Source: Schoenoplectus triqueter (Eukaryota > Streptophyta > Magnoliopsida > Poales > Cyperaceae). Taken from it: DNA of 64,000 nucleotides. The stretch is from assembly GCA_964058805.1 (NCBI GenBank), contig CAXKVV010000022.1:496001-560000 (forward strand). The letters are read 5' to 3'. The translations under genes were made by a program, and so were the position numbers. Below, piece by piece: positions 7,501 to 47,032 of this stretch; within the stretch, counting starts at the first letter, position 1; each line of letters starts with the position of its first letter. The notes beneath the pieces are model-generated. The model was not told the origin of the DNA and searched no databases. It was given only the letters and a program-made list of their open reading frames with translations.

Positions 7501-7504
7501 ATAG

Positions 7505-15415: not shown

Positions 15416-17610
15416 ATGGCATACTTTGGAAACTTCAACCTCGCTCCCTACACCGTCATGCCTGCACAGAGCCCAGAGGGCAAACTGTTCATGTTCTTTG
15501 GGACCATCCCACAAGAACTGACTGTCTACGGCCCAGCTCCAGTGGCCGCCTTCACTCCCGCGACCGTCCAGATCTCCATCCCGGACGAGGAGGAAGAATC
15601 GATCACCCTGACTCCCAAGGGGATCTCAAACAACGTTATGGCCTCTCCTACTACCTCCCCAAAGAGGAGAAGGCGACCGTCCAAAAGGACAGCCCCAACG
15701 GCAGCAGCCCAAACTGCTCGCAACTCTCAAGCATCCAGGAAGAGGGCCCTGGATGCATACCAGAACCAGCTGGTGGCTAGGCCAGCTATCCCAGTCTCCA
15801 ACAAATTTACGGCACTCCGAATAGTGGCTAAGAACTCGGCCACAGGCCAGCTCCGCCAGGCATGGGAGGTGCCTAAGCCCACACCTCGCCCAACTCAAAG
15901 GCCTCAGCGCCGCCAAGACAAATCTCAAACCCCTGCAGAAGCCATCTATAAGGCTCACAGGGCCCTCAAGCAGAGGAAGAGCGTCAAGAACGCTAGATCG
16001 AGACGATACGTCTCCTGCCCCAACCAATCTCAAGGCATGGCTCAGCCGCAAGCCATTGCCTCCACTCCGAACACAAGGAGGTCTATACTAAAGGCAACAC
16101 CTAGCACCCAGCAGGTGTGGGTCCCGAAGGGTTCCCAGCCAATAAAGCCTCAATCTCAAGCCCAGCCCAGCAAGGCCGGCAAATCCAACGCTCCGCCCGA
16201 GAGCGTGTTCAGTCGCTTGGGCCAGAAGAGTGTATTCAGCCGATTAGGCTCGAGAATACCACTCAACAACTTAAAAATAACTGCCCCTGACCAAGCGAAG
16301 AAGAAGAGAAGAACCGCTCACTATGAAGAGCACTTCTCGGTTAATACCATCAGTATAAGCTACGATACTGACCCAGATACTGATGGGGAGGTGAATATGG
16401 TCCAGGATGACCAGTCCCCGCCTAATCAAGTTCACGTCACAAATACCAACAAAAATAATGGTAGAAAAGGGAGACCCCCCAAGAGAGTCAACCCCGAAGG
16501 CAACAGCAGGGAAGGGGAAGATCACAATGAAAACCCTGACTTATTCGACAATGAAGATGACGTTGAAACACGTCCCGAGATGCCTATCGATGAGATAGAA
16601 ATATTAAAAGGCCACATCGAGGCACGGGACGAAGAGCTGATTAGGCAACGGGAGCTAATCGCTACCATGCTGAAGCAAAATGAAGAACTGATTAAGGCGG
16701 TCAAGTCATTGCAGGAATCACAAGACGCCAATTTCAAAGCTGGTAGCTCCCGTCAAGAAGGGGTCCACAGTACCAAAAGCAATCATAAGGGAAAACAACC
16801 TGTCGATTCTAAACCCCATCCACATAGAACCATAGAAGTGGAGGCTGAACCAACGGGAATATCCCGGAAAGAGATTCAAGCCATGATTGCCCAGCAAATG
16901 CAAATAGCTGGAGGTGGATACGCTATCCCTCCCGTCAAAAACTGTGGACATCCATACCCTACCATATACGATTTAGAAGAATATCCTAAAGGGTATGTGA
17001 TCCCCCGTTTTAGGACCTTCTCAGGGGAAGGCAATAAAGACCTAAACCCCGAACAACACCTGGCCCACTTTGTAGCCTCGTGTGGCAACACGGGCGGCAA
17101 TGATGCACTGTTGTTAAGACAATTCCCTCAGAGCCTAGTGGGAACCGCTTTCTAATGGTATTATTCGCTGGAAAACAACAGCATCAGGACCTGGGACGAG
17201 ATGGCAGACTCGTTCAGGGCACGGTTTGTCATGGTGTCTGACAAAATAAATATAGCCGATCTGGCAAGCACTAAACCCAAGAAAGGGGAGTCAATGACAG
17301 ATTTTATTAATAGATGGCGGAACCTCAGCATCAAATGCGACCGCACATTAACTGAAGATGAGGCCGTCAACCTAATCATGAAAAACATTGACGGGTGGAT
17401 GGGCATGCTTCTTGGTGTGACAAAGGTCAACACATTCAAAGACTTGCTCAGATCGGTATCCAATATGGAAAGGATGTCACCACACACGGTGCCGAATTTT
17501 ATGAATAATAGGTCGCAACGAGGGGCCCGAGCTGAAACCAAAGTGGCATTCACCTCGTTGAAGGATAAGATGGTTGCCGACGCAGACACCCAAAGCGGCA
17601 GCAGTGGCAC
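15416..17610 (+). pseudogene. gag: Outer element gag, 5' part, broken by a stop codon and the inner insertion
   Basis: This corresponds to about residues 14-744 of the intact inner polyprotein. The start is the ATG at 15416, directly after a TTTTGCAG|G acceptor-like site. It has the basic Pro/Ser-rich N-terminal region, then a coiled-coil-like stretch (about 405-450 in inner numbering) and the capsid-like core. A TAA at 17153-17155 replaces the CAA (Gln) codon of the intact copy, a C-to-T change. The frame then stays open to 17610. At that point the inner element interrupts it within a Gly-Ser-Ser-Gly-Thr linker. The reading frame resumes at 47033. Confidence 0.9.
17606..17610. other. Target site duplication (left copy, GGCAC)
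   Basis: GGCAC here directly precedes the inner LTR end TGTGCGACCC. The identical GGCAC at 47028-47032 directly follows the other LTR end GGGTAAACA. Five bases is the usual length for Ty3/gypsy integration. The duplication lies in outer gag and fixes both borders of the inner element. Confidence 0.97.
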
Positions 17611-17902
17611 TGTGCGACCCTTTTTCGCGCGCCGCCGCACCGCCGCCGGGCGGTGGGTTCTGCGGAAGAAGGACACGGAGATCCCCCCTAGATATGCATC
17701 CAAAATCTTATGTTCCCTGAGTTTATTTTGATAGTCCCACCGGGCGTGCCAGATCCTGTGCGACCCTTTTTCACGCGCCGCCGCACCGCCGCCGGGCGGT
17801 GGGTTCTGCGGAAGAAGGACACGGAGATCCCTCCCGAGCGTGCATCTGCATGGGTGTCGGCCAATTCTGCCGTTTATAGATATTTGGGTGCACATTCAGG
17901 GG
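17611..17902 (-). repeat. LTR-terminus/PBS cassette repeats inside 3' LTR
   Basis: Two starts of TGTGCGACCCTTTTT lie 146 bp apart (17611 and 17757). Between them, at about 17734-17756, is a full copy of the PBS sequence in complement. The LTR therefore contains an internal PBS and an internal former LTR terminus. The outer element has only one terminus and one PBS. Confidence 0.85.
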
Positions 17903-20614
17903 GTTTTTAGTGATTGTGAGTTCTTGTAGATTCCAGTGGGCGCAAGCCCCCACTGTTAATTACCCTGGGCTACGAACCTCGAGGCACCTCTGGATCTTTG
18001 AAAGAGAGAAGCAAATAGTATAGTTAAGAGATGGGCAAGTGGTCGTCTAAGTTTATAAAAAGGGATCTACGGGAGATGAACCTACAAACAGACCGGTTCA
18101 ATCTATGGAAGACAAAACCTACAAACAGATCGGTTTTATCCTATGGGGACGAACCTACAAACAGACCGGTTCAGTCCATGCCACCTCGAGATGTAACCTT
18201 ACCAACAGACCAGGTTAATCTCTTCATAGGGGGCTTGAGGTGAGTCTACATACAGACCGACTCGACCTCCGTTGATCTAGAAGATAAACCTACAAACAGA
18301 CCGGTTCAATCTTAACTAGTCAACAACCAATCACACAAAATACAACTCGAAGCACTGAGCCGGTTGATCTTGAGGTTGGTAAATCAGGAGAAGGGTGGAT
18401 ATGGCCCACGTGTTTCTTCTCACCGATCTTCTAGATCATGAATTCGTAGCACTAAGCCGATTCATAAACCTAGGAAACACAATTGCACACAATGTCAAAC
18501 CTGAAGCGCTGGGCCAGTTCAACATTGAGGCATGTGTTAGTGAAGGAACCTACCTACAGAACGGTTCACATTCACTGTTTTGTGGATGAATCTACCAACA
18601 GACCGATTCAATCTCACATTCTCGGGAAATGAGCCAGGAGACAAACTCATCGACGGACGAGTTCAGTCTTGCCAGCTCAAATGGTCATGAATTACTTGTT
18701 CACGACACCGAGTCATTAAGATGTCACTTCGCTAGGACATCATAATGTTCTTCATCTTCAAAGTCGACATATCTCTCCATGCTGATGTCGTAGCTTTGGT
18801 CAATCTTCAACGAACGTCAAGATGTTCTTGTCTCGACTAATCATTCTATGGGTTGCATTACTTGTGCAAAATTACTATGTAGCCCTACACCCCTTGTGTG
18901 AGCATATTCAATCATGAGTTACTTGCTCATGGCAGCGAGTCATTAAGATGTCACCTCTCTAGGACATCGTAATGTTCTTCTTCTTCAGAGTCGACGTATA
19001 TCTTCATGTTAATATCGTAGCTCTGATTATTCTTCATCAAACATCAAGATGTTCCTGTCTCGATGTATCTTCTCAGGTCGCTATCGAAGCCTTAATCTTC
19101 TCGTGTCAAGATGTTCTTGTCTCAACGCATCTTCTTCATATTGCTATCAAAGCCTTAATCTTCCCACGTCAAGATGTTCTTGTCTCAACGTATCTTATTA
19201 TTATTCATCAAATGTCAAGATGTTCTTGTCTCGGCATATCTTCTCATATCACTATTAAATCCTTAATCATCTTACGTCAAGATGTTCTTGTCTTGACTAA
19301 TCGTTCTAAATGTTGTGTGAATATTCCCATGTGACTCTACACTCCTTGTGTGAGCATTTTTATTCATTTTAAAAATATACAAGGCCCACATAATATCTTT
19401 TATTATTATTTCTATTATAAAGATGCATTTATTTATTATTATTATTATTATTATCATTATTTATTTATTCTATTTATCTATGTAGAAAATTATTTACAAA
19501 AATAATAAGAAAAGGGGTAGCTATTAACTTAGAACTTTATTTATATTTTTGGGATTTTTATAATAGCTAAAATAGTAGAATTTTATTTTTATTATTCCTA
19601 AACTCTATTTATTCTATAGAAAATCACTTACTAAAATAATAGAAAATAAAATGGCTATGATTTTTATTTGTATTTTTAAAATGTTCATAATAGCTAAAGT
19701 AATAGGATTTTATTATTATATTCTATTATATTGAAATACTATTCATTATGTAAGAATCATTTACAAAATTAAAAGGTAGTTAGCTATACTATTTTACTAT
19801 TATTATTTTTATTTATATTTTTTTATTTTTAATATATATTTTTTTTATAATAGCTAAAAGAAATCATTACTAATATTCTATTCTATTTATTATACTATTC
19901 ATTATATCTATTTTTATTATCTCTATTTATTATCTATAGAAAAGTATAAGATGAAATATAGTATACTTTTATTACAACTATTATTTTTATTTCATTTTAT
20001 TCATCAAAAGTATTTTTTTATTGTATATTTGTATAGAAATAACAAAAGAAATACAATTCATATTATAAAACTATATTATCATTTTTTTTATTATAAAAGA
20101 GAATGTATTTTACTATTTATTACCATAGTAGTATATTTTGCATATTTTGTGCTATTTTATTTTTATTATTCTTTTTACAGAAAATATCAATATAATATCT
20201 ATTATTATTATTATTATTATATTTTTTTTATTTATCAAAGAATATAGCTAATCTCATCATTTATTATAGTATATTACTATCACTATTATTATTTCATGGA
20301 AAATCACTTGAAAAATCACTAAAATATATCTAGTTATTATTTATGATTTTTATTTGTATTTTTGGAATTTTTATAGCATTTAAAATGACAAGTCAAAGCT
20401 AGGTCAACTATATCAATATATGTAATGTTTTTTTGCTTTTAAATTGTTTTATCATGATTATATTTTTAAAACTGGAATATTATGGTATAGAAAAATAGTA
20501 TGAAAAATAAGAAAATTTTAGAAACAAATTTGAGTCAATTTGGAGTTCAGGAGCATTTTTAAATCATTTATTTACTCAATATTATCACTGTTCTGTTATT
20601 ATTTAATTAATGGG

Positions 20615-20825
20615 TTTAATCTGGGCCGCCAGATCTGTACCGAGATTGGTGCGCATCTTTCTAACTCTCTTCTTCACTTGGGCCGCCAGATTAGTTTGAG
20701 ATGAGTGTTTAATGGATCTACGGCCCAGATTAGCACAGAGTTATTATTTAAATGTTTAAACATATCTGGGCCGTTAGATTTAATTAAGATCCGTGTTTAA
20801 GGGTTCTAAGGCCCAGATTTTCTTC
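20615..20825. repeat. GGGCCGCCAGAT short hairpin cluster
   Basis: Several copies of a small self-complementary motif are present, such as ATCTGGGCCGCCAGAT at 20619-20634 (6-bp stem, 4-nt loop) and ATCTGGGCCGTTAGAT at 20764-20779. Partial copies lie near 20679, 20717 and 20809. The outer LTR has ATCTGGCGGCCCAGAT at 12357-12372. Function is unknown. Confidence 0.45.
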
Positions 20826-21349
20826 CGTTTAATCTCTCCAAACTTTTAATGGATCTCATCCGCTGACGAATCTTCAAGATTGGTGATCGCTTCAATGATC
20901 GTGCAAAGAGAATCTCTTCGGCCTCCGACTTTCTGATGCGTTAAGATCTGTGCAACGCGGTGTTCCCGGTGATCGGAGCACTCATTCTCCGATCAGATCA
21001 TCGACTTAGCATCGTCTCACTCTGGTGAGTCTCTCTGTAGTTCTTGATTGGAGATCCATACGGTGACAGGTTTCACACAGCAATGCTAACTGATGTGTCA
21101 GTTGCAACCGGTACCGAATTGCCTTCTTGATCGAATTTAACAGAATTGATTGACATTCTTGATAATTGTAAGGCCAGTGAGCATCGCCTTGATGCATAGA
21201 TGTGATCTGGAGTAGACTTAAGGCTCCTGCTTCATTCTTGACAACGCTGAGGCTCTCCATTGCTTAGCAAAGCACGGTACCGACTGGTACCAACTTCAAT
21301 TGATACAAGTCATGATCTTTTATCAATTCTTCTTGCTCAATTAATGCTT

Positions 21350-21537
21350 CTCAGGCCTAGAGGCACACCCAGACAAGTCTAGGGCCAATGGCTCACTGAG
21401 TTTGTGGCAGTATTGATCAATTTACTTCGGCGATGAAGATGGAACAGTAATCTTATCACAAATTCTTATTATTATTGGTTAATCCAGGCCTAAAGGCTCG
21501 CCAAACACTTTGTGTTTGGGCCAGTGGCTCACTGGAT
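21350..21537 (-). repeat. Two co-varying hairpins in the inner LTR leader
   Basis: The hairpins are 21350-21400 and 21482-21537, repeated at 43452-43502 and 43584-43639. They share AGGCCTA, AGGC and GGCTCACT in their loops. The outer stems differ but pair (CTCAG/CTGAG versus ATCCAG/CTGGAT). The apical stems also differ but pair: CCCAGAC with GTCTAGGG (one bulge) versus CCAAACAC with GTGTTTGG. Position and architecture parallel the three outer-element hairpins, although the sequence differs. Confidence 0.55.
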
Positions 21538-22979
21538 ACTAGTCTCATAATTGATTTAGTATTCAATCATGGCTCAATTAACAGAAATGGTGAAATAGAA
21601 AGAAAATAGGAAAATTACTAAACAAGAAGCAGAAAAAATGAAGAAAGCAACTCAATTAACTGTTTGAAAACATGAATTGAATGTATAAGCTTAATCTCAC
21701 ATGAAGAAATATCAAGAAATATCGACTGAGTTGAAAAGGGCATAACCTACTTACCTTTTATCCGAATAGAATATGCTAATTGACTTGCTAATCTCCCTTA
21801 TCTCTTTCTCTCTTTACAATAGCTAATCACTGGTGTATTATTTTCTCTCTCTACTAATGGGTGTATGAATGTATATGTCTCTCCTCTCTACTGTTGCTGG
21901 TTCTCAGCTTATATAGACTAATTCGGCCAATTTGGTTAATTGTGATTGGTTGGCTACACCTGGGCCGGATTGCCACCTTGTATAGATCCTAACTCTCCAT
22001 TCCAATCGCCTGAACGGTTGTGATTGATTTGTGTTTCTTCTCTAACCGTTTTCTGTTAGGATTTGACTGTGCCACAATTCTTTGACTCAATTGAGCGCCT
22101 ATTTCAACTGATAAGTGGCCTCTCACTGCCAAACCATGCTTAAACACTTCCATCTCGTTGCTAAGACCCCCTTTCTCTTTCAATTGCATAGTTTTTCATT
22201 CAGCTTCTAAACTGCATTCTTGACCCGTCTCTTCTCTTAGCTAAATTCACCATCTTTTACTCAATTGCCTTTTCAATCCGTGTCAATTGTCATCGCCTTG
22301 ATCTGAATAAGCTTTTTCACCATTCAATTTGATCCCTAGAGTGCTTATTGAATCTGCCTCTCCATTACTGCCTCCGACAGCTCCTTAAGCTTGAGCCTTC
22401 CCCTAATTCAATTGCTCCATAATTACTTATCAATTGGCGTCGCCTTAGCATAAAGAAGCTCTCTGTGTGCTCAATTTGGCGTTTAAAGCACTCAACCACA
22501 TTTCTTTGAAAGCACACCGTCGCTGCTTCAATTCAAATTGTGGTAATCCTATTGTCCAATTCTTCCTTCACTGTTATCCTTTGTTCTCACTTCCCTGATC
22601 GAAGCATTAATGCTTGTCATCTGTTTTGAAGCCTCTTGCAATGGTGAGGCGCCATGGGAAGAAGCCAGCGATCGCGCGCGAGGAGAAGAAGAAGAGGGAG
22701 CGGGGAGAGCCTTCGACTGGACTGGATGGGCTAAGCACACGTGCACCAAAGCGCCAGGGGGGAATAGATCAGCAACTGGGAAAGCATGCACCAGGTTTAT
22801 CCTATTCTCATCTTCTTTTTAAATTCGATTGCTTTGATTAGAATGAATCAGTAGGGTAGACTTGGCGTACCACCTCAATTATGCACTTATGCCCTTATCT
22901 CTGTGTTCTGGGCCCCATTGTCAGATATTAATTCGTTTGTCTCCCATGATTAGCCTTAATTAATCTGGTTTATGCTGAG

Positions 22980-23480
22980 GTGGCTCTTCCTGATTGGTTG
23001 ATTGCTTATTAAACAAACCCTTAGTGCTAATGATCTGTATATGATGTGGCTCTGTAATATAGTGCCATGTGGCACCTTGTGTTGCTCTGTACCAATCATA
23101 AGGAGCCATGTGTCCCTCCTTGTACACACTGTATGATGACATGGCACCAGTGAGTGCATGCCATGTGGCATCCAGTGGGGCCCATTTGTCAGTCGCCTTG
23201 TAGCATAATGAGATTCATAGTGGTGAGGTGGACCAATAAGGGTAGGCCACATGGCACCTGACTGTTGAAGTGGCCCTATAGCATGCTGCCATTTGTCCAG
23301 CTGTTGAATGAGATGGCTGCTGATGTGGACCAATGGCTGACTGCCATGTGGCATAGGTGGGACCCACTTGTCAGGTCTGTAGGGGTGTGGGGCCCACATG
23401 GCTGAGGTGGACCAATGGGGTGCTGACACGTGGCATGAGGTGGCCCAATGAGGTGCTGACACGTGTCACACCCTCTCTCT
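22980..23480 (-). repeat. G-box-rich minisatellite of the inner 3' LTR
   Basis: This is the counterpart of 9490-9850. It has repeated GCCATGTGGCA, GACACGTGTCA, GAGGTGGACCAATGGG and GTGGGACCCACTTGTCAG-like units. A long open frame here encodes only a His/Pro/Thr-rich translation of the repeat and is not a gene. Confidence 0.55.
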
Positions 23481-24406
23481 TCTCTGATTCGGTATAGGTG
23501 TGTTTAGGATCCCCAGTTTGCACCCAGATGAATCTCTGTCCCCAGATTGCACCCAGATGAACCCTTGATTGAATCTCAGCCTTTGATTAATCTATTTATT
23601 CTGCCTTTATCTTCCCTGAATTTATTCTGATAGCTCCACTTATCCAAAAATTATGAAATTTTCACCAAAAAATCCCTAAATTCATGATGATCATCCCTGT
23701 AATTTTTAATTCCATTTTTACCCCTCCTTCTCTGAATTAAAAATTCTTTTATTCATAAAACCCTATTATTCTCTCTGAATTAATCCCTGATCTCAGTTGT
23801 AGCTCTGTGTCTCTGCCAATTATCTCCCTCTTGCAGAAACCACCCTAACTAAATACCAATTAGACTTATATTGATATTCATTAGGGCTTGATTTGATCAA
23901 ATGCTGACTACTTATCAGCAATTAATACAAATCTAGACTTGATCAGGTGTTTGCTCCCAGCTTTGGCACCTGATCAGTCTTGTGAAATTGACTTTCAATC
24001 CCTTAACATGAGGGTGACTTGGTCAAAGAACTGACTACTTATCAGTAATTGACACAAATCAAAGCATGGTTAGGTGGTTGCTCGCAGCTTTGGCACCAGG
24101 TCAGCCTTGAAAGTAAAATCACATTTGGAATTTCTCATGATTAGTTGCATCAAAATGCTAGCTTGGCATTGACATCATTTCATGTAGTATAGGGATTACA
24201 CTGCTTCAGCTCCTTCCTAGGGTTAGCTTCAAAGGCAGATTTCTAGGGTTCAATTCTGACCCTCTTCAATAGGTCACTGAGGTGTGGGGTCCACCTGCCA
24301 GTGAAAATGGTCACATGGTGACTCATCAGATAGACTATGCTATTAGGTTCATCTACAAGGGACTGCCAGGTGGGTCCCACTTGTCAGATAAAAATGTAAT
24401 CAAATG

Positions 24407-24737
24407 GCTGACCCATCAAGAGATCTTCTCTCTCCTAAATCTCCCGAGGGTCAGCCACCTCGAATGAGTAGGAGGTGGCTGGGTATTTATATCCTTGCCC
24501 CATATTTAGGATTTCCTTGTGGGATTAATGCTTAACCTCTGTTCCGGGTTGGTTAGCTTTCTTAACAAAAATAGGCTAGGTCCATGTCATTGGAGCTGCT
24601 CATAAGGGACTGCCATGTGGGTCCCACTTGTCAGAAAAGATATAATCACATGGTGACACCCAAGAGGTCTCCTCTCTCCCTCGATCTTCTTGGGTGTCAC
24701 TCATGCTGAGTGGATAGAGAATAGCGGGGTATTTATA
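24407..24737 (-). promoter_or_regulatory. Tandem TATA-plus-hairpin modules of the inner 3' LTR
   Basis: On the minus strand TATAAATA occurs at 24730-24737 and 24484-24491, 246 bp apart. Hairpins follow at 24653-24700 (13-bp GTGACACCCAAGA stem) and 24407-24457 (GGCTGACCC stem plus GAGAT inner stem). The geometry matches the outer LTR. The 5' LTR copy is at 46509-46839. Confidence 0.55.
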
Positions 24738-24925
24738 CTCTTCACTTCATGCCCAACATTCCATTGTGGGACTAATGGATTTGTTCCGGGGTTAGGCAGC
24801 GACTTTTCCTGATCAGTGGGCCACCTTTCCACTACTCTTTCTCTTCTTCCCCTTTCTTATGATTTTATCATCAATTTATTTCATTTATTCATCCATTCAT
24901 CCTTGAAACTTTTCAAGGGTAAACA

Positions 24926-24976
24926 AAGAGCCACCCACCAAGACGAGTCTTGAACGCTCGAAAGGCTTGTCTTGGT
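24926..24976. other. Polypurine-like tract and hairpin at the 3' LTR junction
   Basis: On the element's sense (minus) strand the sequence before the 3' LTR is TTGGTGGGTGGCTCTT, then TGTTTACC. This is only weakly purine-rich for a plus-strand primer. The inverted repeat ACCAAGAC/GTCTTGGT (24937-24944 with 24969-24976) adjoins it. The outer element has the same arrangement at 59286-59336. Confidence 0.45.
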
Positions 24977-27900
24977 GCATTATTCCTTATTATTCATCAT
25001 TTCATTTCTCATGACGTCATTCCTTCTTCGGGTATTGTAGTTTTATCTCATGACGCCATTCCGCGTCGCCCCTTGAGTCATTATCATTCTTTCTACGAGG
25101 ATCCTAGCGATTGGACTCCTCTCATCTCAGCCATCCGAGCGACTCCTGTCTACCCGCGAGGCGGCGGTTTATTCTTCAGGGATGATCAGCCTCATGACAT
25201 CATGCCCCTTCAGCCCTTAGGCGTTGCTTCTACAGCTCCTTTGACACATCTCCTGGGCAAGGAGATTATCGACGGGGAGGCTCACAGGTGGACCACTGCC
25301 CCTTTCATCACTCCCTTAGAGTGCCATGGATATCAACTAGAGTGGACCCGGTATGTGCTCATGCGGGAGGGGACTCTGCTCAGGCGAGCCGGGATATATG
25401 ACTCGGTTTTCTTGTCGATGTTTTATTATCATATCGACACACCCTGGCTACGGGCCTTTTGTGAGCGGTGGAACTATTCCACCAACACTCTATTCATCGA
25501 CGATCGGGAGTTGACTCCGACCCTCCTAGAGATACAGCAGTTGACCGGGCTGCCGATTTTCGGTCATTTCTATGACGAGTTCATGGTCTCGCCCGCTGAC
25601 TCGGGGGACTTCACTCGATTCCCGCCTTCTTTGCATAGGATTTATGAGATTTATCATCATTTACGGAGGGGGCATCCCGGAGTTCCGTTCAGACATTGGA
25701 TCGCCTATTTCACCGATCGGGTCCACACTCGCCCTACGGGTCTGGCTTCCACCAGAGATCCATTTGGTACAGGTCGGCTCGAGATTCATTATGACGGCCC
25801 TATCCCATCTCAGGATACCCTGTGTTCACATGATGTGGATCGGGAGACTTATTTGACAGCTTTCATCTCTTGGTGGATTTGCTATTTCTTATTACCTAGC
25901 TCACCCGCATACACCATTCGGCCTTCGGTGTTCATTATGGCGAGCCTGATCGCGCGTGGCGACAGGATTTCTTTGGCCGTGCCTGTTCTGGCCAACATTT
26001 ATAGATGCCTCCGCGGTTTGACTTCATCTCGTAGTCCTTCACAGTGCCAGGAGCTGATCCCGTGGCATCTGATTAGCGGATGGCTCCATTTGCATTGGTC
26101 TGGCTCATATGATCCCGGCATGGCGGTCACGCTACGAGATCGCCTACCCATATTGAGTGACTTAGCTGGGGTGCAGCCAGCTTCATTGACTCCGGAGGCT
26201 GCTCGATATAGATTCTTCAGGAGTCGAGACCATCTACGCTTCTCCCGAGACAGATCAGTGGCCCGTGGGACATCTAGGGTTGCTGACAGGATGGTAATTG
26301 ACAGCAGAGTTCCCTCTTCTGACTCTTCTAGCATTCGAGCCAGGCCTATTGATTTAGAGTACCTGATCAGTATTCGTCAGGGCTTTCTTCCTCTCAGATT
26401 GGGCGATCATATGTTCATCGAGCCCTATTCGCCACATCGGTGCGCACATCAGTTTGGCTTGGATCAGGATATTCCAGCGCCTCTTCTCCGCCCTATATCA
26501 TTGGCAGCCGATTTGGAGGGTATCGGATGGTGCTACACTCACCTCTTCCGACTAGGCACGGGCACTCGCTATCAGATGGTATCCACTTTTAGGACTTCCA
26601 CCTTCACGAGGCGTTATCAGCAGTGGTATTATGAGACCATTCGCTCTTATCAGTCATATACCCCTCCGGTGGTCGTCCGGAGTACATGTCCGCGAGATGG
26701 CCAGCCTCTATTAGATGGCACCGTTCCGCGTGATCGCAGCTCTTTCCCGGCCATTGCCGCAGAGCCTGTCGACTTTCAGGGTTTAGACAGCCGGTTTTCT
26801 CATGCTCCTGTTAGGACCATTCTCACAGGTATGCTTTATTACCCTTTAGGTTATTTCCTTTTCGATAAGCCTCATCTCATTTCGACCAATTCTCTTTTGA
26901 TTCAGAGCTGGCTTATGAGTATGATCACGCGGAGCCCGGGTTCTCGGTCCCTCGTCCACGAGTAGTTGGCGTTCATTCTCAGCCACATGTCGAGCCACCG
27001 GCTCCAGCTACTATGGGGAGGGATCGAGACGGCGCCTCTCAGCCGTCTTCTCCATCTTCTTTTCCTTCTCCCACTCCGGGTGATTTTCTTTACTGACTCG
27101 CCTATCCTTATTCGGGCGCACTTTATTTACATTTCTGATTAGGGTTTGTTTTTCAGCTCATGGGCCATCTCCTGTGGAGGCTACCCGAGACGACATCATA
27201 GCAGGTCCATCGGCGCCTGTGAGCACTGCTGTTCCAGGGTTTTGCACCGACCTTGCCGTCGCAGGTTCGTGTGCTTTATTTAATACTTAGTTGCCAGTAT
27301 GCACTAGTATTTTCATTCTTACATGTAGATTTTACAGACCCTGATGTCGATGACATGGCATCTCCGCACCGCTCGGAGTCTTTCTTCTACGACGGTCCTG
27401 CTTCACCGTCGATTTTGCTGGTACCCACTGGAGATGGTGACTCATTCGATGTGGTTCTGGGGCCAGTGCTCACTCTTGCACGACCAGAGGAGGCTTCTTT
27501 AGAGCAGGGGAATCCATTGGCTGTCGAGCCCACAGGCGACGAGCCACTACTGATCGAGGGAGGGCCATCTCATGCTTCTTCATCTCCCGACGGGCAGCCT
27601 CTCATGGCCACAGATGGCAGAGTCTCGACTGAGCGGGTTGCAGTCGACTACGACTCAGAGTTGGATGAGAGCTGGCTGGTGGAGCAGCTATTTCACAGCC
27701 CAGAGATGGAGATTCCGGCTGGCGAGGGTCTCGCCGAGCCTCATGCTTCCTCCGGTACTTTATATTTCTTTTATCATTTGCCCGTATTTTACTTTTCATG
27801 TACTTATGCTTCTTCATTTTATTTTGTAGCCGGGTCTAGTGCACCTGCAGGTCCTCCTGAGGCGACCGACATTCCTATCCCTGACTCAGTCCCACCTGTC

Positions 27901-28602
27901 TCAGGCGACGAGGCGATAGGTTAGATCTTCTTTCCCTTCTATTTCTTCTTTGGTTATAACAATTTGTCTAACCCATTTATTTTACTTGCAGATGTTTCAT
28001 CGAGGGATGTGCAGCTCGCCTTGGCCGCGCTGGGGGATGCACTCCGAGATACCTTCTTCGGAGGCTATCCGCTAGATTCTGAGATCCTGGACTCCCTGCC
28101 CAGTGGCTTCTCCTTTGATTGGTATAGGCTGATGCGGGATACCATCGCGCCGGCTCTACTCATTGCACCTCGTCTCGAGAGCACTTTCATTTCCAGGAGG
28201 TGTGAGGAGCTGCTCAGGGCTTACCAGGATGCGAGCTCTCTCGTATACCAGCATGAGTTAGAGATTCATGAGCTGCGCAGGCATTTGGAGGCCGCTCGAC
28301 TCCACTACCTTCAGCGGCTCTCTTCTTGTGCCACTCTCCGCTCCATGGGAGTTAGTGGTGGGCCCGCTCGACTGCTCGTGCAGGAGCTAGAGGACCACAG
28401 ATTATTAGTAGAGGGCTTCTCTCGACATCTGGCGGGACGTCTCCCGGAGCTGCAGATTCATTCGAGTGCCCGAGATAGTGCTTTCTCTCAGTTCCTGGAC
28501 TTCGAGGCAGCCTCGGAGGAGGATAGGCACTCCCTCCATACTCATTTAGAGACTATTAGCACTGTGTTATTAGAGTTGGAGTCCCGCTTTTTGGGCCCAT
28601 AG
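24950..28602 (+). CDS. Antisense six-exon Plant Mobile Domain gene (inner element)
   Basis: The gene is antisense to the retrotransposon, between pol and the 3' LTR. The predicted exons are 24950-26828, 26906-27079, 27157-27264, 27338-27754, 27830-27919 and 27992-28602. All introns are 72-77 nt, GT-AG with pyrimidine-rich acceptors, and all are phase 1. The joined length is 3,279 nt, which gives 1,092 codons plus a stop. Exon 1 (about residues 115-430) has Plant Mobile Domain hallmarks: FCERWNYSTNT, then ELTPTLLEIQQLTGLPIFG, then a Trp-rich helical core. Exons 2-5 encode an acidic, Pro/Ser-rich, probably disordered linker. Exon 6 encodes Leu/Glu/Arg-rich helices that look coiled-coil-like. 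The start is uncertain: 24950 is a TTG, the frame is open from 24923, and the first in-frame ATG is at 25202. A further 5' exon in the LTR is possible. In plants, free-standing PMD proteins (MAIN/MAIL type) affect silencing and genome stability; the role here is unknown. Confidence 0.82.
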
Positions 28603-30342
28603 ACTGCACTTTCATTTTTTTTTCTTTCTCCTTTTCTTTTTGCCATACTTGATATAGGATGTATTGACATTTATCATTTTGATCTCTTGTTGTGGATGAT
28701 GCTTGCCTTTATTATTATTATCCCTTCATCGCTTCCTCTGCAGCGCGAGGAAATATTTCATCCATTCATGCTGTGCACCTCCAATCTTATTTGCAAAAGC
28801 GCCCTATTACAACTGCTTCGCAGCGTCTAAAATAAAAGGAAAATCTTACAACATCCTATTACATTGATTCTATTCATCATTTCTTTTTATTCATGGCAAT
28901 ACAAAACTCAAGTAACCGTGGTATTTTACGGATACCGAACCTGTCTGTATTGACCTCTAGGCCAGGTACAGAATAAACCCGTTTATCCCTTTATTACTGA
29001 TGGATAAACTTACCAGTATCAATTGAATTATGGATGCAATTGATAACACCATTTCGTGGATGCTCCTTATATGTTTAATTGACTTTTATTTGTGGAAGCT
29101 CACCCACTCTCCCCTCATTTGTGCACCGTTGCGTGCGGAAGTGGAAACTCACTTTCACTCATCTCCACTCAATTTGTTTTGTGGGGGTACTACCCTCAAA
29201 CATCCATCACGCATCCCTGCGAGACAGGCTTTCATCGGGTAGGTTCGCTTTCCGTGACCTGAGTCACTTCTTTAAGCGAATTACTTTATTTGACACTGAA
29301 TGTCGGGCAAAAGCATAAACCCTTAGTCTGACCCCTCCATGATCTATTTTGGGATTAGAAACAGATCACCTCCTTGGGCGTGTGGTACTTTTGCGGATGA
29401 ATGTACCCAACCTGGTTTTTTTATATTTTAGCTACCCTCAAACATCCATCACGCATCCCTGCGAGACAGGCTTTCATCGGGTAGGTCCGCTCTCCATGAC
29501 CTGAGTCACTTCTTTAAGCGAGCCGCTTTGTTTAACATGAAATGTCGGGTACAAGCGTAAACCCTTGATCTGACCCCTCCATGATATGTCGTGGGATTAT
29601 GACACACCATTTCTTCGGGCGTGTGGTGCTTTTACGGATAAATGCACCCAACCTGGCTTTGTATAACACTCGTGGTGTCGGGGACAAAGGTGGCAACCCC
29701 TTATTGAAAAGGTTTTATTATTATTTTTTTTATTATCATTTTTTTTATTAATAGGAAAATAGGTTTTTATTGTTTTACATATATATCCATTTATTTTATT
29801 AGAAGAAGGCAAATTTTGTTATTAGTGATACATGCTACTAATAATACGAGAGTTATTTATTTATATGCCCTCGGAAGCGACTATTTACTAGCCACCAATT
29901 TGCTCGACCTATCTGTTGGCTTGCGCCGCGGGCGACCAATATGAGCAACTTTCGTCATTGGGCAACAGATAGTTTGAGGGACAAACTGCAAACCCTGCCC
30001 ATTTTTGTGTTTATTCTGTATCAAATGGACAAACCCAGTGGTATTTGTATTATGAGCCCAAACACCAAAGCTCTCGCCTTACATTCTCGCGTGGTTTTGG
30101 CGTTGAATTCTCTTATTCTATATTTTTTATTTATTATTTTTTTTTATAGGGCTAAATGTGTTTGTGTGGTTTTGGATTTTTGGATGCATTCTATTTACAG
30201 ATGCACAAGTAGGGTTTTGGGATTTTTATGCAAAAGTGGAGGTAAGACATGGGTTTGTATTTCGTGCACGTGTGTGTAAACGAACACTTATTCCCTCCTT
30301 ATTTATTTACAATAGATACTACTCGATCGGCCCCGCTCCGGG
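28603..30342. other. Region between the antisense gene and pol, with a 242-bp tandem duplication
   Basis: The 3' ends of two convergent genes face each other here. Two imperfect copies of a 242-bp unit start at 29191 and 29433, sharing TACCCTCAAACATCCATCAC, ATGTCGGG and CCCAACCTGG. An A/T-rich run with TTATTATTTTTTTT lies near 29715-29760. No convincing gene is seen. The outer element has the same region at 53931-55660. Confidence 0.6.
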
Positions 30343-33300
30343 CTATGTGTAGTACTTCTTCAGATATCGCCCATTAATCGGTGGCATGGGCCTTTCACCT
30401 TCATGGTCTATGAGTTGGTATGCGCCGCCCTCGTATACCTTCTCAATTACATATGGCCCTTCCCAATTCGGGGAGAATTTTGGGCCGATGTGCCGGCCAA
30501 TGATCGGCCTTTTAAGGACAAGAACAAGCTCCCCTTGTTGAAATGCCCTGACTCGCGCCATTTTGTCATATGCCCTTGCCATTTTTGCCTGATATATTTC
30601 AAGGTTCTGCTGGGCTATTAATCTCTTCTCGTCCATGGCATCCAACTCGTCCAGTCTAAGTTGTTGACATTCGTCCATGGTCATATCGTTTTGCATAGCC
30701 ACCCGCAATGACGGTAATTCTACCTCAAGAGGGAGGACGGCTTCAACCCCAAAAGCCAAAGAATACGGGGTAGCTTGCGTAGGCGTTCGGTATGTGGTCC
30801 GATAAGCCCATAATGCCTCCTGTAGACGATTATCCCAGTCTCGTTGGTTGCCGTCCACAGTCTTCTTCATGATATTGATTAGGGTTTTGTTAAAGGCTTC
30901 GGCCAGGCCATTGGCTCTCGGGTTATAAATGGACGAGAATCTCCAGTCAATATTGAATTGCTCCGCCAGGGCATAGACTTTGGAGCTCTTGAAGGCCGTC
31001 CCGTTATCGGATATTATTCGTTGGGGTGTGCCGAATTGGTAAAGGATGTGCGTCTTGAAGAATTTAACCACATCGGATGCTTTAACTTCTTTGAGTGGGA
31101 TGGCTTCGGCCCATTTTGTAAAGTAATCTGTCGCCGCCAGGATGAATCGGTGACCTCTCGACGTCGGAGGGTCTATGGGCCCCACTATATCTGTGCCCCA
31201 CATATTAAATGGCCAGGATGCTACCGTGGGGTGCAACGGGTTTGGCGCTTGATGTATAAAAGGGCCATGTATCTGGCACATGCGGCACTTCTTCGCGTGC
31301 TCTTCACAATCAGCCACCATCGTGGGCCAATAATACCCCATTCGCTTGATCTTCAACTTCATCTTTGGCCCAGACTGATGTGCTCCGCATAGCCCAGAAT
31401 GAACTTCTTTCATAACCTGCCCGGCTTCAGGCCCTGATACACATCTTAGCCATAACTGATCATAAGATCTACGGTATAGCGTATTGCCCACATACGCATA
31501 CCGTAGTACCCGTTTTCTTAGTTGATCAGCGATTCTTTTATCTTTGGGGAGGGTGCCATGCCGGAAATATTCGATGAACGGCTGTCTCCAATCATCGTCT
31601 TCAGTCATCATTGTCTCTTGGCATTCTACTTTTTCTGGCCCAGTGCCTTCATTATTCACATTGTCTGTCGTCTGACACAATGATAATGGCCTTCTATTGC
31701 GGACGATGATGTGGATTTCCGGCTCTGTTGGTTCACCCAGCTCTTTGGCGAGTTTGGCCAACGCATCTGCTTCACCATTCACAGCCCTCGTGACCTTCTC
31801 GATGGACACGTACGGGATTTTCTTCATTAATTCCATAGCCTTTTGGTGATATTGTATTAGTTCCGGCTTCAAGACCTTGTATTCGCCGATTATTTGATTT
31901 ATTATCAGCTGTGAATCCCCAAATATGCGCACAGCCTTGATCTCTAGCTCGAGTGATAGCTCTAGTCCGGCGATAAGTGCCTCATACTCTGCTTCATTAT
32001 TTGTACATGGTTCAGTTAAAGCCAGAGAATGTCGTATTATCCCGCCTTCCGGGGTTACGAAGACTAGTCCTATGCCAGCTCGCACAGTTGGGACTCCCGG
32101 GCCCGCAATTGGCTTGATTGAAGAAGCACCATCAAAGTACAACTCCCATATAGGGTCTCCTTCTTCAACGTGTAGGGTTTCCTCGTCTGGAAAGTCACAT
32201 TTTAATGGGGAGTCATCTTGGATCGGGTGTGCAGCCAGGAAATCTGCTAGCGCCTGCCCCTTTATCGCCTTTTGCGGTGTATAGGTGATGTCGAACTCGG
32301 TGAGAATAATAGCCCACTTGGCCAGCCTCCCCGTCAGCATTGGCCGAGTCATCAGATACTTGAGAGGGTCCACCTTGGATATTAAAATGATTTTGTGGGC
32401 TAGCATGTAATGCCTCAATTTCTTCACCGCGAAGATTAGGGCTAAACAATGCTTCTCGATCGGTGAATACCCGTGTTCTGCCCCTACCATCATGCGACTT
32501 AGGTAATATAGCGCATTTTGATTACCATCCTGGTTTTCTTGGGCCAATAGGGCTCCCAAGGATCCATCTAGGGCGGTTGTATATAGGATAAGTTCCTTCC
32601 CAGGTATGGGTGCCGCCAACACTGGAGGGTTGAGCAGATATGCCTTGATTTCTTCAAAGGCTCGCTGGCACTCGCCATCCCACTTGAACGGGATATTCTT
32701 CTTAGTTAGCCGGGTGAAGGGTTGGATTTTACCCGATAGATTGGCTATGAACCGCCTGATGTACGCCAATTGCCCTTGCAAAGATCGCAATTGTTTTAAA
32801 TTCTTTGGCGGGGATAGTTCCATGATTGCTTTGATCTTGCCTGGGTCTATCTCGATTCCCCTATGGCGTACCACAAACCCCAAAAATTTACCGGATGATA
32901 CCATGAATGCGCATTTCAACGGGTTTAGTTTGAGCGCATGTTCTCTCAGGCGGTTGAAAACGACCTCAAGGTATTGGAGGTGTTCTTCATATGACATGGC
33001 TTTGATGACTAGATCGTCCACATAGCATTCTACTATTTTGTGGATCAGATCGTCGAATATCTTCGTCATCGCCCGTTGGTAGGTGGCTCCCGCATTTTTG
33101 AGTCCAAACGGCATGACTTTGTAACAATATATGCCAATCGGCGTGCGGAATGCCGTATGCCTCTCATCTTCCGGCGCCATCTTGATTTGATTATAGCCCG
33201 CATAACCGTCCATAAAGGAGAAGACTTCATAAGAGGATGTATGATCAATTATGATTTCGGTTACTGGGAGCGGGAAATCATCTTTAGGACACGCCTTATT

Positions 33301-36300
33301 CAAGTCCCGAAAGTCCACGCAAATGCGGATCTGCCCATTTTTCTTTTTAACCGGGGCAATGCTAGCCACCCATTCTGGCGTCTCTTCTTCCCGTATGAAG
33401 CCGGCGTCGATGAGTTTCTTTGTCTCTTCCACAACCTTCTCTTCGAGTTCTATTCTCATTCGCCTCGGCACTTGTTTAATCGGCTTGAAGGTTGGATCAA
33501 TTTTTAAGTAATGGACCGCCACGTTGGGATCTAATCCAGGCATTTCTTTATAACTCCAAGCGAAGCAGTCCATGTAGCTTTTAAGGAACGTCTTCAACCT
33601 GTCAGCCACCTCTTCCGGCAAGGACGCGCTTATGAAAGTTGGTCGTGGGTTTTCTTCCGTCCCCAGATTAATTTCAGCTAACTCATCGACCGTATTAGGC
33701 TCCTTTTCTAGCTGCTTCAAAGCATTTTTCAGGACCGGGGCATTGTCCTCTTCTGTTTCATTATCTGGCGTTTCAACAGAAGTCATGCAGCAGCTTTCTT
33801 CCATACGGTACCCGTTGAGAGACCCCTCAAAACATGCTGCGTCATCGCAGTTATACCCTAATCCCCGGGTGTATTTTATTTTACCGTCCAGGCCCAGGAC
33901 TTTGTTCTGGCCGCCATTCCAGAGTTCATCAAAGCGCTTGGCCTCGGCCTTGGATATGTCTCTTAGACATTTCGCCCTTTTTGCTAGTTTATACAGCTCT
34001 TTTCCAAAGGGATGAGATGCAACGTCACCGCTCGTTGCATTTTCTGATTCTTGTTCTATCACCCACTTCTTCCAAGTGTTGTGATCAGGATTCTTCAGAG
34101 ACTGGGTCGAATCACTCTGATAGAAAATTATAGCCTTATGGATGATAGTTTTCCCTTTGAGGCGCTCTACCTTTGCCGGCACAACAAAGGTCTTTAGGGT
34201 TTGGATGTGGTTCACCTCCCTTGGTATAAGGTCTTTAAAATGCCTTTCGGGGACCACAGTAATCTCCAGCGCTGCCATCTCCTCTTCTATTTCAATATTC
34301 ATGACTGAATTGGAGCGGTAGATTTCTTTGATCGGCTTACGTCTCGCAGCCTTAGGTTTGCTAGGTACGGGAGTGTGCGAGATCGTATAAGCAACCCCTT
34401 TACCTTTGTTATTCGAGTTATGCGGAGCTGGGTCTTGTTGAAAGCTCTTCGGGAGTTGGATTGTCCCGTTTCTGTGCCCTTCTTCTATTAGGTCCTTGAA
34501 TACCCAACACTCTTCAATAGTATGACCCAATATGCGATGATAAGGGCAGAATTCGCCTTCACCGGCTCTCTCTATGTCTGCGGGTCGTTTGCAAACGGGA
34601 AGTGTTAATCCGCTCTTTAAGGCCTGCTCAAATATCCGAGCTGTTTTATTTTTCAGGAAAGAGTATGGTTTACTCTTCTTGACCTTGAGAGTTTGCATGA
34701 CGGTCGGTTGTTTAGCTTTCATTTCTTCCCCCTTTGATTCATCTACTATGACAATTACCCGTTTGCCGCTATCGGGTGCTTGTCTTTCGGGGGTCCCGGA
34801 ACGGGGTTCGCTCGTCACCTCCTTGAGTAGCTCGGAGTTATAAATCGCGGTTTGCAGGTTTTCAATCATTACCATGATTTCATTGTGTTGCGTCTTGATA
34901 TCCTGCATCACTTCCCATTGTTCAGACACCTCTCTTCTATTATTTTCAACTTGGTGCCTTATTTCGTCGATCGCATTCCAGACGCGACCTTCGAAATTTT
35001 CCCGCCATGAGCGTTCTTCATTTATAGGCCTTGGCCTAACCGGGTTATCCCTTCCGCTACCGGGTCCCGCGTTGATCATAAATGACTCCTCGCTTTCATT
35101 ATCTGTTTCGGGCCCTTTATATGGCTTCTTGAGGATGTGATAGATGATCTCTTCGTCAGACTCCTCTTCCCAGGGTTGACGATCATGGCCAGATTCTTCT
35201 CCCGAGGTGGTATCGCCCGAGTTGTTAGAATCTTCGGAGTCTTCTCCTGAAGTTGCCTCTATGATCTGAATTTGAGGGGTGTTGGCAGGCCTAAAATTGA
35301 AAATGACCTCCTCTTCAGAATCACTTGCATTGATTTCGCTCGGTTTTATTTGGGCCTTATACGCAGCCACCTGTTTGAAGCGGAAGGTTGCTTCTTCACC
35401 CGACTTTCTTCCGGGTCTTTGGGCTCGAGCGCCTCGGGGTTTAATGTTAAATTTGACCTCTTCTTCTTCTCCGGATGAGGTATCAAATTTAGGGCCTTTG
35501 TTGAAGGGTTTCTGACCTGCTTTTGTTATAGGCCGGCTTGGCGCCACAGCGGATTTAGGCAGAAAATACTGGGCGTCATTGAACTTAATCTCATGCACCC
35601 CGAATGGCTTGACATCTCCGTCAATTCTCTTTTGCTTACCATTCTCAATATATTTCAGGCACTGGTGCAGAGTAGAGGGTATGACCTGATTGCTGTGAAG
35701 CCACGGGCGACCCAGCAACGCCCGATAAGAGGTTTCAGCGTCAATAACATAGAATTTAGTAGGCGCCTTTAAGCTTCCGCATTGCAGGTTCAAAGTTATA
35801 GCTCCCAGGGCCTTTTGGGAGTTTTGGTTGAAGCCATGAATAATCACCTTTTCATCAGATAAGTTCTTCACATCTAAGGTGATGGTCTTTAGGGTTTTAA
35901 GCGGCATAATATTGATCGAAGACCCTGCGTCGACCAGGATGCGGCCAATCTTTTGCCCTCCGCAGTTTCCGGTGATATATAGCGGGCGGTTATGGTCGAC
36001 GGTGCCTATTAGGAGGTCATCGTCTGTGAAATTTATACAGGCGGCCCGTTTGGCGGTGAATAGGGCTTCTTGCATATTTTGCTCTACGAAGTATGACTTG
36101 TACTTCTCAGGATCTTGCAAGGCCTGGATTAGTACCTCCCTTAGGTCTTGTGACATCATCAACGCGTCAAATATGCTTAATAGCGCTGGGATCTTACGCA
36201 GATGTGCCAACACATTATATTCTTCGCCCGTCGACCGGGTCTTTTCTGGGTTCTTGCTTAGGTTCTCGGCCTCTTTACCTTTATTCAGGGCCTTATCCTT

Positions 36301-39300
36301 TCCTTTATCGGAATCCTTGGGAGCCTGTCTCTCAGGTATATAAGTCCCGGACCGGAGCACGGCTTTGCATTCTTCATTTTTGGTCCCAGAGGTGCTTGCT
36401 TCTCCTTCATCATTTGGGAAGAACATCTCCTCTAATGTTGGCATATCTTCGTCGTGAGAAGAATATACCATGTTGCACGAAGCACCCCAGATCTCTTCGC
36501 TTTCTTCTTTATTTATTTCTTCATCTACATTTTCTTCGTTTTGACCTAGGGTTAACTTCTCCCAGTCTTCTTTGGAGATGAAATGTTGAAGGGTGATCGC
36601 CTCGGGACTGCCCTGCTCGTACTCTTCAATCTTATTCTTTCTGGACTTGTTGTTTCTATGCTTCTTTCTTTTCTTAAGAACCTGGTCTTGACTTTGGTCC
36701 ACCTTATAATATACCCTAGGTTTTGGTGGGACCACTGGCGTAATGTCGTCTTTCCATTTCATGCCAGGTTCTTTCTTAAGGGCTTTAAGCATTTTAATCG
36801 ATTTCTTCGATAGGTGCGTAGTCCATTGTTCTTCGTGGTCTTCGCATGACTGGCCCGGGACTTTCTCTTCTTCGTGAGAGATCGTGTTGGCCTGCTCATG
36901 GGCTGATGGGCTTTGCAAGAACCCTTTAGGTAAAGTAATTTCACCGTTTTTATATGCTTTCTCGACCCAATCTTTGAAGACCCAGCAATCTTCAATTGAG
37001 TGCCCTATTATTCTGTGGTATGGGCAGAAGTTGGGTTCGTCCGATTTATCGGCATCTTCCGGGCGTTTACTGGCCGGCAGGGTTAGGCCGTTCTTCAGTG
37101 CCCCTCTGAAGATTTGGGCAACTTTATCTTTCCTGAAGGAGTACGGTTTAGATTTCTTTTGTTTGAGAGATTCGAAACTCCGTGAACTCCCTCCTGGGTT
37201 GGGCCTGGGTCCCTTATTATAATTGTTGCCATTTGTGCCACTGCTGCCTTGGGTGTCTGCGTTGGCGACCATCTTATCCTTCAACGAGGTGAATGCCACT
37301 TTGGTTTCAGCTCGGGCTCCTCGTTGCGGCCTATTATTCATAAAGCTCGGCACGGTATGCGGTGACATTCTTTCCATGTTGGATACCGATCTGAGCAAGT
37401 CTTTGAATGTGTTGACCTTTGTCACACCAAGAAGCATGCCCATCCACCCGTCAATGTTCTTCATGATTAGGTTGACGGCCTCATCTTCGGTTAATGTGCG
37501 GTCGCATTTGATGCTGAGGTTCCGCCATCTATTGATAAAATCTGTCATTGACTCCCCTTTCTTGGGTTTAGTGCTTGCCAGATCGGCTATGTTTATCTTG
37601 TCAGACACCATGACAAAACGTGCCCTGAACGAGTCCGCCATCTCGTCCCAGGTCCTGATGCTGTTGTTTTCCAGCGAATAGTACCATTGAAAGGCGGTTC
37701 CCACCAAGCTCTGAGGGAATTGTCTTAACAACAGTGCATCATCGCCGCCCGTGTTGCCGCACGAGGCTACGAAATGGGCTAGGTGTTGTTCGGGGTTCAG
37801 GTCTTTATTGCCCTCCCCTGAGAAGGTCCTGAAGCGGGGGATCACATACCCTTTAGGATATTCTTCTAAATCGTATATGGCAGGGTATGGATGTCCACAG
37901 TTTTTGACAGGAGGGATAGCGTATCCACCTCCAGCTATTTGCATTTGCTGGGCAATCATGGCTTGAATCTCTTTCCGGGATATTCCCGTTGGTTCAGCCT
38001 CCACATCTATTGTTCTATGTGGATGGGGTTTAGAATCGACAGGTTGTTTCCCCTTATGATTGCTTTTGGTACTATGGACCCCTTCTTGACGAGAGCTACC
38101 AGCTTTGAAATTGGCGTCTTGTGATTCTTGCAATGACTTGACCGCCTTAATCAATTCTTCATTCTGCTTCAGCATGGTAGCGATTAGCTCCCGTTGCCTA
38201 ATCAGCTCTTCGTCCCGTGCCTCGATGTGCCCTTTTAATATTTCTATTTCATCGATGGGCACTTCGGGACGTGTTTCGACGTCATCTTCATTGTCAAAGA
38301 GATCAGGGTTTTCATTGTGGTCTTCCCCTTCCCTGCTATTGCCTTCGGGGTTGACTCTCTTGGGAGGTCTCCCTTTTCTACCATTATTCTTATTGGTATT
38401 TGTGACGTGGGCTTGATTAGGCGGAGACTGGTCGTCATGGACCATGTTCACCTCACCATCAGTGTCAGGATCAGTATCGTAGCTTATACTGATGGTGTTG
38501 ACTGAGAAGTGCTCTTCATAACGAGCGGTTCTTCTCTTCTTCTTTACCTGGTTAGGAGCAGTTATTTTCAAGTTGTTGAGTGGTATTCTCGAGCCTAACC
38601 GGCTGAATACACTCTTCTGACCTAAGCGGTTAAATACGCTCTCGGGCGGAGCGTTGGACCTGCCGGCCTTGCTGGGCTGGATTTGAGACTGAGGTTTAAT
38701 TGGCTGGGAACCCTTCGGGACCCACACCTGCTGGGTGCTAGGTGTTGCCTTTGGTGTATACCTCCTTGTGTTCGGAGTGGAGGCAATGGCTTGCGGCTGA
38801 GCCATGCCTTGAGATTGGTTAGGGCGGGAGACGTATTGTCTCGACCTAGCGTTTTTAACGCTTCTCCTCTGTTTGAGGGCCCTGTGAGCCTTGTAGATGG
38901 CTTCTGCAGGGGTTTGGGGTTTGTCCTGGCGGCGCTGAGGCCTTTGAGTTGGGCGAGGTGTGGGCCTAGGCACCTCCCATGCCTGGCGGAGCTGGCCCGT
39001 GGCCGAGTTCTTGGCCACTATTCGGAGAGCTGTAAATTTGTTGGAGACTGGGATAGCTGACCTAGCCACCAGCTGGTTCTGGTATGCATCCAGGGCCCTC
39101 TTCCTGGATGCTTGAGAGTTACGGGCAGTTTGGGCTGCGACCTTTGGAGCTGTCCTCTTGGACGGTCGCCTTCTCCTCTTTGGGGAGGCAGTAGGAGAGG
39201 CCATTACGTTGTTGGAGATCTCCTTGGGAGTTAGGGTGATCGATTCTTCCTCCTCGTCCGGAATGGAGATCCGGACGGTCGCAGGAGTAATCGTGGCCAC

Positions 39301-47027: not shown

Positions 47028-47032
47028 GGCAC
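47028..47032. other. Target site duplication (right copy, GGCAC)
   Basis: This is identical to 17606-17610 and immediately follows the inner LTR end at 47027. Beyond it the outer gag frame continues with the Thr-Asn-Gly codons expected from the intact copy. Confidence 0.97.

Follow-up and report, generated by a model that had tools for sequence, protein, structure and literature searches.

A predicted spliced antisense gene with two Plant Mobile Domain cassettes and a probable start in the long terminal repeat of a Tat-clade retrotransposon from Schoenoplectus triqueter

We analyzed a stretch of 64,000 nucleotides (hereafter, the window) from Schoenoplectus triqueter (Cyperaceae). It lies on contig C22, and its assembly (82 Mb, 2,086 contigs) was also the genome searched in this study. 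The window contains two nested long terminal repeat (LTR) retrotransposons, element A (minus orientation) being inserted in element B (plus orientation). Element A has, between its pol gene and its 3' LTR, a gene that is antisense to both. Positions 24950-28602 of the plus strand, minus five introns, give 3,279 nt, i.e., 1,092 codons and a stop codon. The predicted introns on this strand (26829-26905, 27080-27156, 27265-27337, 27755-27829 and 27920-27991) all have GT-AG borders and phase 1. Exon 1 (25041-26828, left border predicted) encodes a Plant Mobile Domain (PMD), exons 2 (26906-27079) and 3 (27157-27264) a linker, and exon 4 (27338-27754) an acidic linker; they are followed by exon 5 (27830-27919) and by exon 6 (27992-28602), with a conserved C-terminal tail and the stop codon. 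The gene has a second copy in element B (55661-59312, minus strand). We found that purifying selection has kept this gene, with at least six predicted exons, as a single spliced reading frame.

An earlier note on this DNA, made from the letters and their open reading frames (ORFs), had described six segments joined by five phase-1 GT-AG introns into a 1,092-codon frame, and had assigned to the protein a PMD and an acidic linker. The structure is exactly as described and is backed by the comparison of copies presented below. The PMD assignment was borne out by the PF10536 profile, with a score of 93.1 bits versus the curated cut-off of 34.9 and the best stretch at approximately 25391-26041, within exon 1. 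The linker has 45 acidic (D/E) versus 9 basic (K/R) residues in 266, in agreement with the note. No solved structure was matched by sequence for 25202-26827 (E up to 0.1).

We projected 40 other copies on the window gene (39 fetched copies and the copy in element B), of which 4 were cut by contig ends and 36 were complete. These copies, referred to as type I, were picked by similarity to the PMD exon of the window (40 scored of 171 candidates, window included); each of the 40 projected copies has the gene, which was itself the criterion of their choice. The 3,279 exon nucleotides are retained in 35 of the 36 complete copies, and 33 of 36 have no premature stop or frameshift; L018 and L019 share a stop, and L039 carries a frameshift. 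Three pairs of copies, L009/L010, L018/L019 and L042/L043, are identical in the tail, and each pair may be one locus assembled twice. Borders of the GT-AG type were found in 192 of 193 readable introns; the exception, GT-AA in L038, is a broken acceptor in a copy that is nevertheless among the 33 free of stops and frameshifts. Among copies, introns are between 58 and 80 nt long. There are 31 distinct indels in 374 intron nucleotides versus 13 in 3,188 exon nucleotides (Fisher p 2e-21, indicative only, because the copies are related); 12 of the exon indels occur in neighboring +1/-1 pairs, and the remaining one is the frameshift. Among the splice dinucleotide sites, 1 of 20 is variable (binomial p 0.005, compared to an assumed rate of 0.32). 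The ratio of nonsynonymous to synonymous substitution rates (dN/dS) over 41 copies is 0.081 for the PMD (codons 148-480), 0.291 for the linker and 0.083 for the tail in exon 6; it is 0.072 for codons 84-147 and 0.127 for codons 480-626, the last part of exon 1. The intron 1 boundary is retained, as judged by eye, in relatives of 38-66% identity (P0001, P0002, P0003, P0005, P0007 and P0009). P0001 and P0005 themselves were not among the matches listed in the genome, where the best identities were 68% and 53%.

These data bear on the explanation that the locus is an ordinary antisense PMD ORF, of which unspliced exon 1 alone is translated (a 671-aa frame), the downstream exons being remnants. 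Exon 1 is indeed open without splicing, and the relatives P0001-P0003 are recorded as such single frames. However, exon 6 is constrained as strongly as the PMD (dN/dS 0.083, and 0.087 in the second class of copies described below), exon lengths are nearly fixed whereas intron lengths are variable, and the relatives diverge directly past the intron 1 donor (by eye). Translation of exon 1 alone is, in our opinion, highly unlikely.

No intronless (processed) copy was found among the matches listed, with 40 scored of 153 candidates, and these matches stop at, or a few bases from, exon borders. Persistence of introns through retrotransposition would be expected with a packaged RNA of the opposite strand, and the proposal of the earlier note that antisense orientation protects the introns fits this result. 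A multi-exon gene of uniform intron phase, antisense to the genomic RNA, is kept in copies of recently active elements. It should be noted that the antisense RNA, rather than a protein, could be the product, with double-stranded RNA formed with the genomic RNA setting the copy number. The overlap with the genomic RNA is built in, and such a role is discussed for antisense ORFs in passages of PMC7264820; the codon-level constraint of the antisense frame in the PMD and tail argues against it, and we regard this explanation as unlikely, although an RNA role and a protein role could be true together.

Element A is flanked by a 5-bp target duplication, GGCAC, at 17606-17610 and 47028-47032 (flank reading). 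Its 3' LTR (17611-24925, 7,315 nt) and 5' LTR (39713-47027), both in minus orientation, have 2 differences over 7,316 compared positions, and this low number suggests recent activity of the element. The LTRs of element B begin at 8046 and 59337 and have 99.8% identity over 4,664 aligned bases inside the window. The gag-pol gene of element A (30343-39465, minus strand) is a single open frame of 3,040 aa, in the order gag, aspartic protease (with matches that score below the Pfam cut-off), reverse transcriptase (RT), RNase H, second RNase H (RVT_3) and integrase. The two RNase H domains are RT_RNaseH at 688-791 and RVT_3 at 861-973 of the second half of the polyprotein. A second RNase H after the first is given as a trait of the Tat clade in part of PMC9289625; thus, the domain order and the two RNase H domains in the single frame fit the Tat clade of Ty3/gypsy. 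We conclude that element A is a Tat-clade Ty3/gypsy retrotransposon with its own antisense-strand gene between pol and the 3' LTR. Passages of PMC6317226 attribute to the Ogre lineage a gap or intron between the gag-protease and RT-RNase H-integrase frames, and no gap or intron of this type was found between gag-protease and RT in the single 3,040-aa frame of element A. The primer binding site of the Ogre lineage corresponds to tRNA-Arg, according to a section of PMC9289625.

Related elements are also present in the window. Fragments of them span 3174-8045, with gag and pol pieces of approximately 73-80% identity at 3174-7091, into which element B appears to be inserted. The LTR end of another related element, at positions 1-456, has approximately 88% identity. 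Both elements have, in the interval from pol to the antisense gene, a tandem pair of approximately 230 nt with 85% identity (29190-29660 in A and 54601-55075 in B).

The PMD search of the genome revealed a second class of long open frames (type II), for which we compared 12 copies (L083, L084 and L086-L095), ten of them from the LTR end to the gene end only. Type II copies have the same seven-exon structure as the window gene with the additional first exon proposed below, and 10 of 12 are without premature stops (the exceptions are L083 and L095). Their dN/dS is 0.127 for the PMD, 0.306 for the linker and 0.087 for the tail. The pol end of L083 and L084 (113 and 255 aa) has 100% and 98% protein identity to element A, and the tail pieces of the two copies are 79-92% identical to it (the alignments run partly through introns); the PMD exon has 63% protein identity. 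At the DNA level, the identity of L083 and L084 to the window, computed over 150-nt windows, is 61-73% between 25050 and 26850, and the flanking windows are mostly 85-98% identical, besides an LTR length difference at approximately 24300-24750. The apparently exchangeable cassette is delimited at 24945-27000 (plus strand); these borders are approximate, and they fall near the same points in all 12 copies compared. Between types, the PMD has 63% amino acid identity, and the proportion of synonymous differences (pS) is 0.77, i.e., synonymous sites are saturated. As far as sequence comparison goes, copies whose LTR ends and tails closely resemble each other have one or the other of two PMD cassettes that are old and divergent.

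In the tree of tails, which covers 49 of 53 copies (4 were too short), the cassette type changes 9 times, compared to a mean of 10.9 for shuffled labels (58 and 40 of 500 shuffles were as low); the cassette label is therefore close to random. This pattern fits two old cassettes shifted between backbones by recombination. Such an exchange would keep the reading frame because all introns are of phase 1 and the two cassette borders lie close to the LTR border and within exon 2.

Alternatively, a single recent introgression from a related element, and not a maintained polymorphism, may account for the two cassettes. The metagenomic protein P0003 is nearly identical to type II, so this type also exists elsewhere, as such an introgression would have it. 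Two observations point the other way: the types are intermixed on the tail tree, and within-type PMD dS is alike in types I and II (0.113 and 0.112, the former biased downward by the way copies were chosen) and lower than tail dS in the same copies (0.21 and 0.24). We consider a recent introgression possible, at clearly less than even odds. More tentative still, and in our view doubtful, is the strongest version of the exchange model, in which two ancient PMD specificities would be kept as exchangeable cassettes of an LTR-started spliced antisense gene, moved by recombination during reverse transcription and both held by balancing selection, e.g., from host silencing or interference between elements.

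The earlier note had placed the 5' end of the gene at 24950; this start was rejected, since the frame there has no start codon and contains no ATG before 25202. The ATG at 25202 was rejected as well, since 3 of the 41 copies lack it and P0002 and P0003 have T at this place; it should be noted that P0001-P0003 (64-66% identity) are conserved upstream of it, as judged by eye. The ATGs at 25011, 25050, 25182 and 25194, kept in 41, 38, 40 and 38 of 41 copies, respectively, belong to another frame, and an ATG behind the TATA repeat at 24484 is in the wrong phase (hand reading).

The start codon is probably provided by a 16-nt exon inside the 3' LTR, joined to the rest of the gene by a sixth phase-1 intron. 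The TATA-like box TATTTATA at 24730-24737 (plus strand) is a candidate antisense promoter, and approximately 40 nt downstream ATGGATTTGTTCCGGG is followed by GT in phase 1. The putative exon 0 (24775-24790, plus strand) would comprise the start codon, four more codons and one base; the putative phase-1 intron 0 (24791-25040, plus strand) would span the border between the LTR and the internal region, and with its acceptor at 25039-25040 the conserved part would begin in phase 1. Among 44 LTR copies (41 adjoining a gene, one 5' LTR each from A and B, and the terminal LTR piece at positions 1-456 of the window), TATTTATA is invariant in all 44, the ATG is present in 43 and the GT donor in 41; the single ATG exception is the 5' LTR of element B, which is not upstream of the gene. 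In type II copies, the ATG of exon 0 is present in 12 of 12 and the donor GT in 11 of 12, and a phase-1 acceptor for intron 0 exists in both cassette types, despite the differing surrounding sequence. The joined product begins with MDLFR and has 1,067 aa. The 8-mer TATTTATA occurs on the antisense strand of the LTR of element A at 19538, 19810, 24484 and 24730, with none in the sense direction; the last one of the 5' LTR would point into flanking DNA.

Conversely, the gene could start outside the LTR, from a non-AUG codon or an unrecognized exon, with the ATG and GT in the LTR being incidental. The intron 0 donor is lost in 4 of 56 copies (L005, L062, L069 and L089, which have the change in common), and the LTR end holds another donor-like site (24919), which no open ATG precedes in element A (hand reading). 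The TATA-like box, ATG, donor and phase are, however, concordant in most copies of both cassette types, and also in L084, whose LTR differs around these sites. A start outside the LTR has, in our estimate, an appreciable but minor chance.

To place the PMD, we used a tree of 50 rows, obtained with a quick method, unrooted and without a verified MAIN or MAIL1 row. The window PMD and type II group with metagenomic and plant proteins annotated as 'aminotransferase-like PMD', and a long branch with support of 100 parts the window PMD from the host-type PMD set. The latter includes the loci L080 and L082 of the same genome (assumed here to be host genes), 'phosphatase 7 long form homolog' proteins of Carex, Vitis, Setaria and others, and a Mutator-transposase PMD (P0117). 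For the PMD frame of L080, the best named relatives are from Rhynchospora, with up to 52-54% identity. The unrooted tree bears on grouping rather than on the direction of an ancient domain exchange. The earlier note had suggested that a host-like gene was captured; that this happened recently or evidently is not supported, given the long, fully supported separation from host-type PMDs, a group outside of which the window PMD falls. A recent capture of a host MAIN/MAIL-like gene together with its introns could account for the complete multi-exon structure, and further PMD sequences do exist in the same genome; besides the tree, it is opposed by relatives in several plant genera and in metagenomes and by the PMD being an already known part of Ogre elements, and we regard it as very improbable indeed. 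In one review (PMC8616336, in part), host PMD genes are themselves supposed to derive from Ty3/gypsy elements. In this genome, PMD matches were also found near frames with Mutator-like (MULE) transposase (PF10551) or a SWIM zinc finger (L085, 323-3621; L081, 5027-5935), and the PMD may also be carried by DNA transposons here. One PMD protein, P0011, is recorded as Serratia marcescens; this is presumably plant contamination of a bacterial record.

Taken together, our interpretation is that element A is a Tat-clade retrotransposon with its own conserved, spliced, LTR-started antisense PMD gene, carrying one of two exchangeable cassettes and encoding a putative regulator; we assign to it a probability of about 0.68. 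The spliced antisense gene of the earlier note stands, and what that note had missed is the probable exon in the LTR and the existence of two PMD cassettes. Several points weigh against this interpretation. Choosing type I copies by PMD-exon similarity inflates their intactness. Stops occur within the matched stretch in 21 of 68 listed P0001 matches, some of them possibly due to intron read-through. The first 84 codons of the 24950 frame (24950-25201) have dN/dS of 0.233, with low dS. Exons 2, 3 and 5 alone give only a weak codon-position signal, so that their standing rests on frame continuity and splice sites. Exon 0 is short, lies in an LTR that is perhaps conserved for other reasons, and is argued from position, conservation and phase; the donor losses described above count here as well. 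Regarding the cassettes, the pol data on type II come from L083 and L084 alone; branches with strong support are few in the tail tree and require at least 4 changes, and recombination may have affected this tree as well; and the cassette labels are slightly more clustered than shuffled ones. Finally, a search with regular expressions found no classical nuclear localization motif.

Under the proposed mechanism, antisense transcription would start downstream of the TATA box, within the U3 end of the 3' LTR, the 16-nt first exon would supply the start codon, and removal of six phase-1 introns would yield a 1,067-aa protein with the PMD, the acidic linker and the conserved tail. Recombination would exchange PMD cassettes between copies. 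The protein may be a nuclear trans-acting regulator of element expression or host silencing, which might, for example, interfere with host PMD complexes of the MAIN/MAIL1 type, and the two cassettes may represent two specificities. By analogy, the product is most likely an element-encoded regulator, expressed somewhat like HBZ of human T-cell leukemia virus (HTLV). The seven-exon model with the LTR start gives exact junctions to seek in RNA data and explains why ORF-based annotation reports a mere fragment. The gene shows how an element copied through RNA can carry introns. Exchangeable PMD cassettes would make an unexplained ORF a testable specificity locus and would link it to host PMD proteins active in transposon silencing; two maintained specificities, if true, would amount to an allelic recognition system inside a transposable element.

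Knowledge of antisense ORFs in plant LTR elements goes back to the 1990s, and we know of no established function for them. In the open-license literature, covered mostly by titles and starts of abstracts and with most subscription papers outside its scope, we found no description of a multi-intron antisense gene, an LTR start or exchangeable PMD cassettes in an LTR element. The closest known group is aORF-3R (gene23 of Grande, RIRE2, TRP28 of Retand), which, according to parts of PMC7264820 and PMC11963269, has a common position, antisense orientation, presence in most copies and a conserved protein; the same position and strand were found in A, B, L083 and L084. These are described as ORFs, and the word intron is absent from the main texts of the two papers; the gene reported here differs in having six or seven exons, a first exon that probably lies in the LTR, and a PMD in place of TRP28. 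Passages of PMC7264820 also relate that gene23 of Grande is transcribed from its own promoter and call for examination of antisense and spliced transcripts. The PMD is likewise familiar: PMD ORFs occur in 57% of Ogre elements according to a part of PMC6317226, and another survey (PMC9289625, in the section concerned) ranks the PMD first in frequency among atypical domains. The extra ORFs of Ogre share with our gene PF10536 in a Tat-clade element; the corresponding passages of PMC6317226 mention neither introns nor alternative PMD cassettes, and element A is without the gag-protease/RT gap or intron reported there for Ogre.

The likeness to hbz of HTLV-1 is one of expression. This antisense gene is expressed from the 3' LTR in spliced and unspliced forms, as described in part of PMC10186651, and its N-terminus is set by splicing, as would be the case here with the predicted LTR promoter and splicing; it encodes a bZIP protein, whereas our gene encodes a PMD, and no sequence relation is claimed. 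The VANC proteins of VANDAL transposons (PMC5735166 and PMC10398659) are specific counter-silencing factors encoded by the element, a role proposed here for a different protein in different elements. On the host side, transposon silencing and gene expression involve MAIN and MAIL1 (PMC7156037 and PMC5418596, in part); these proteins have the PMD in common with the antisense gene, and PMDs of the host type form a different deep group in our tree.

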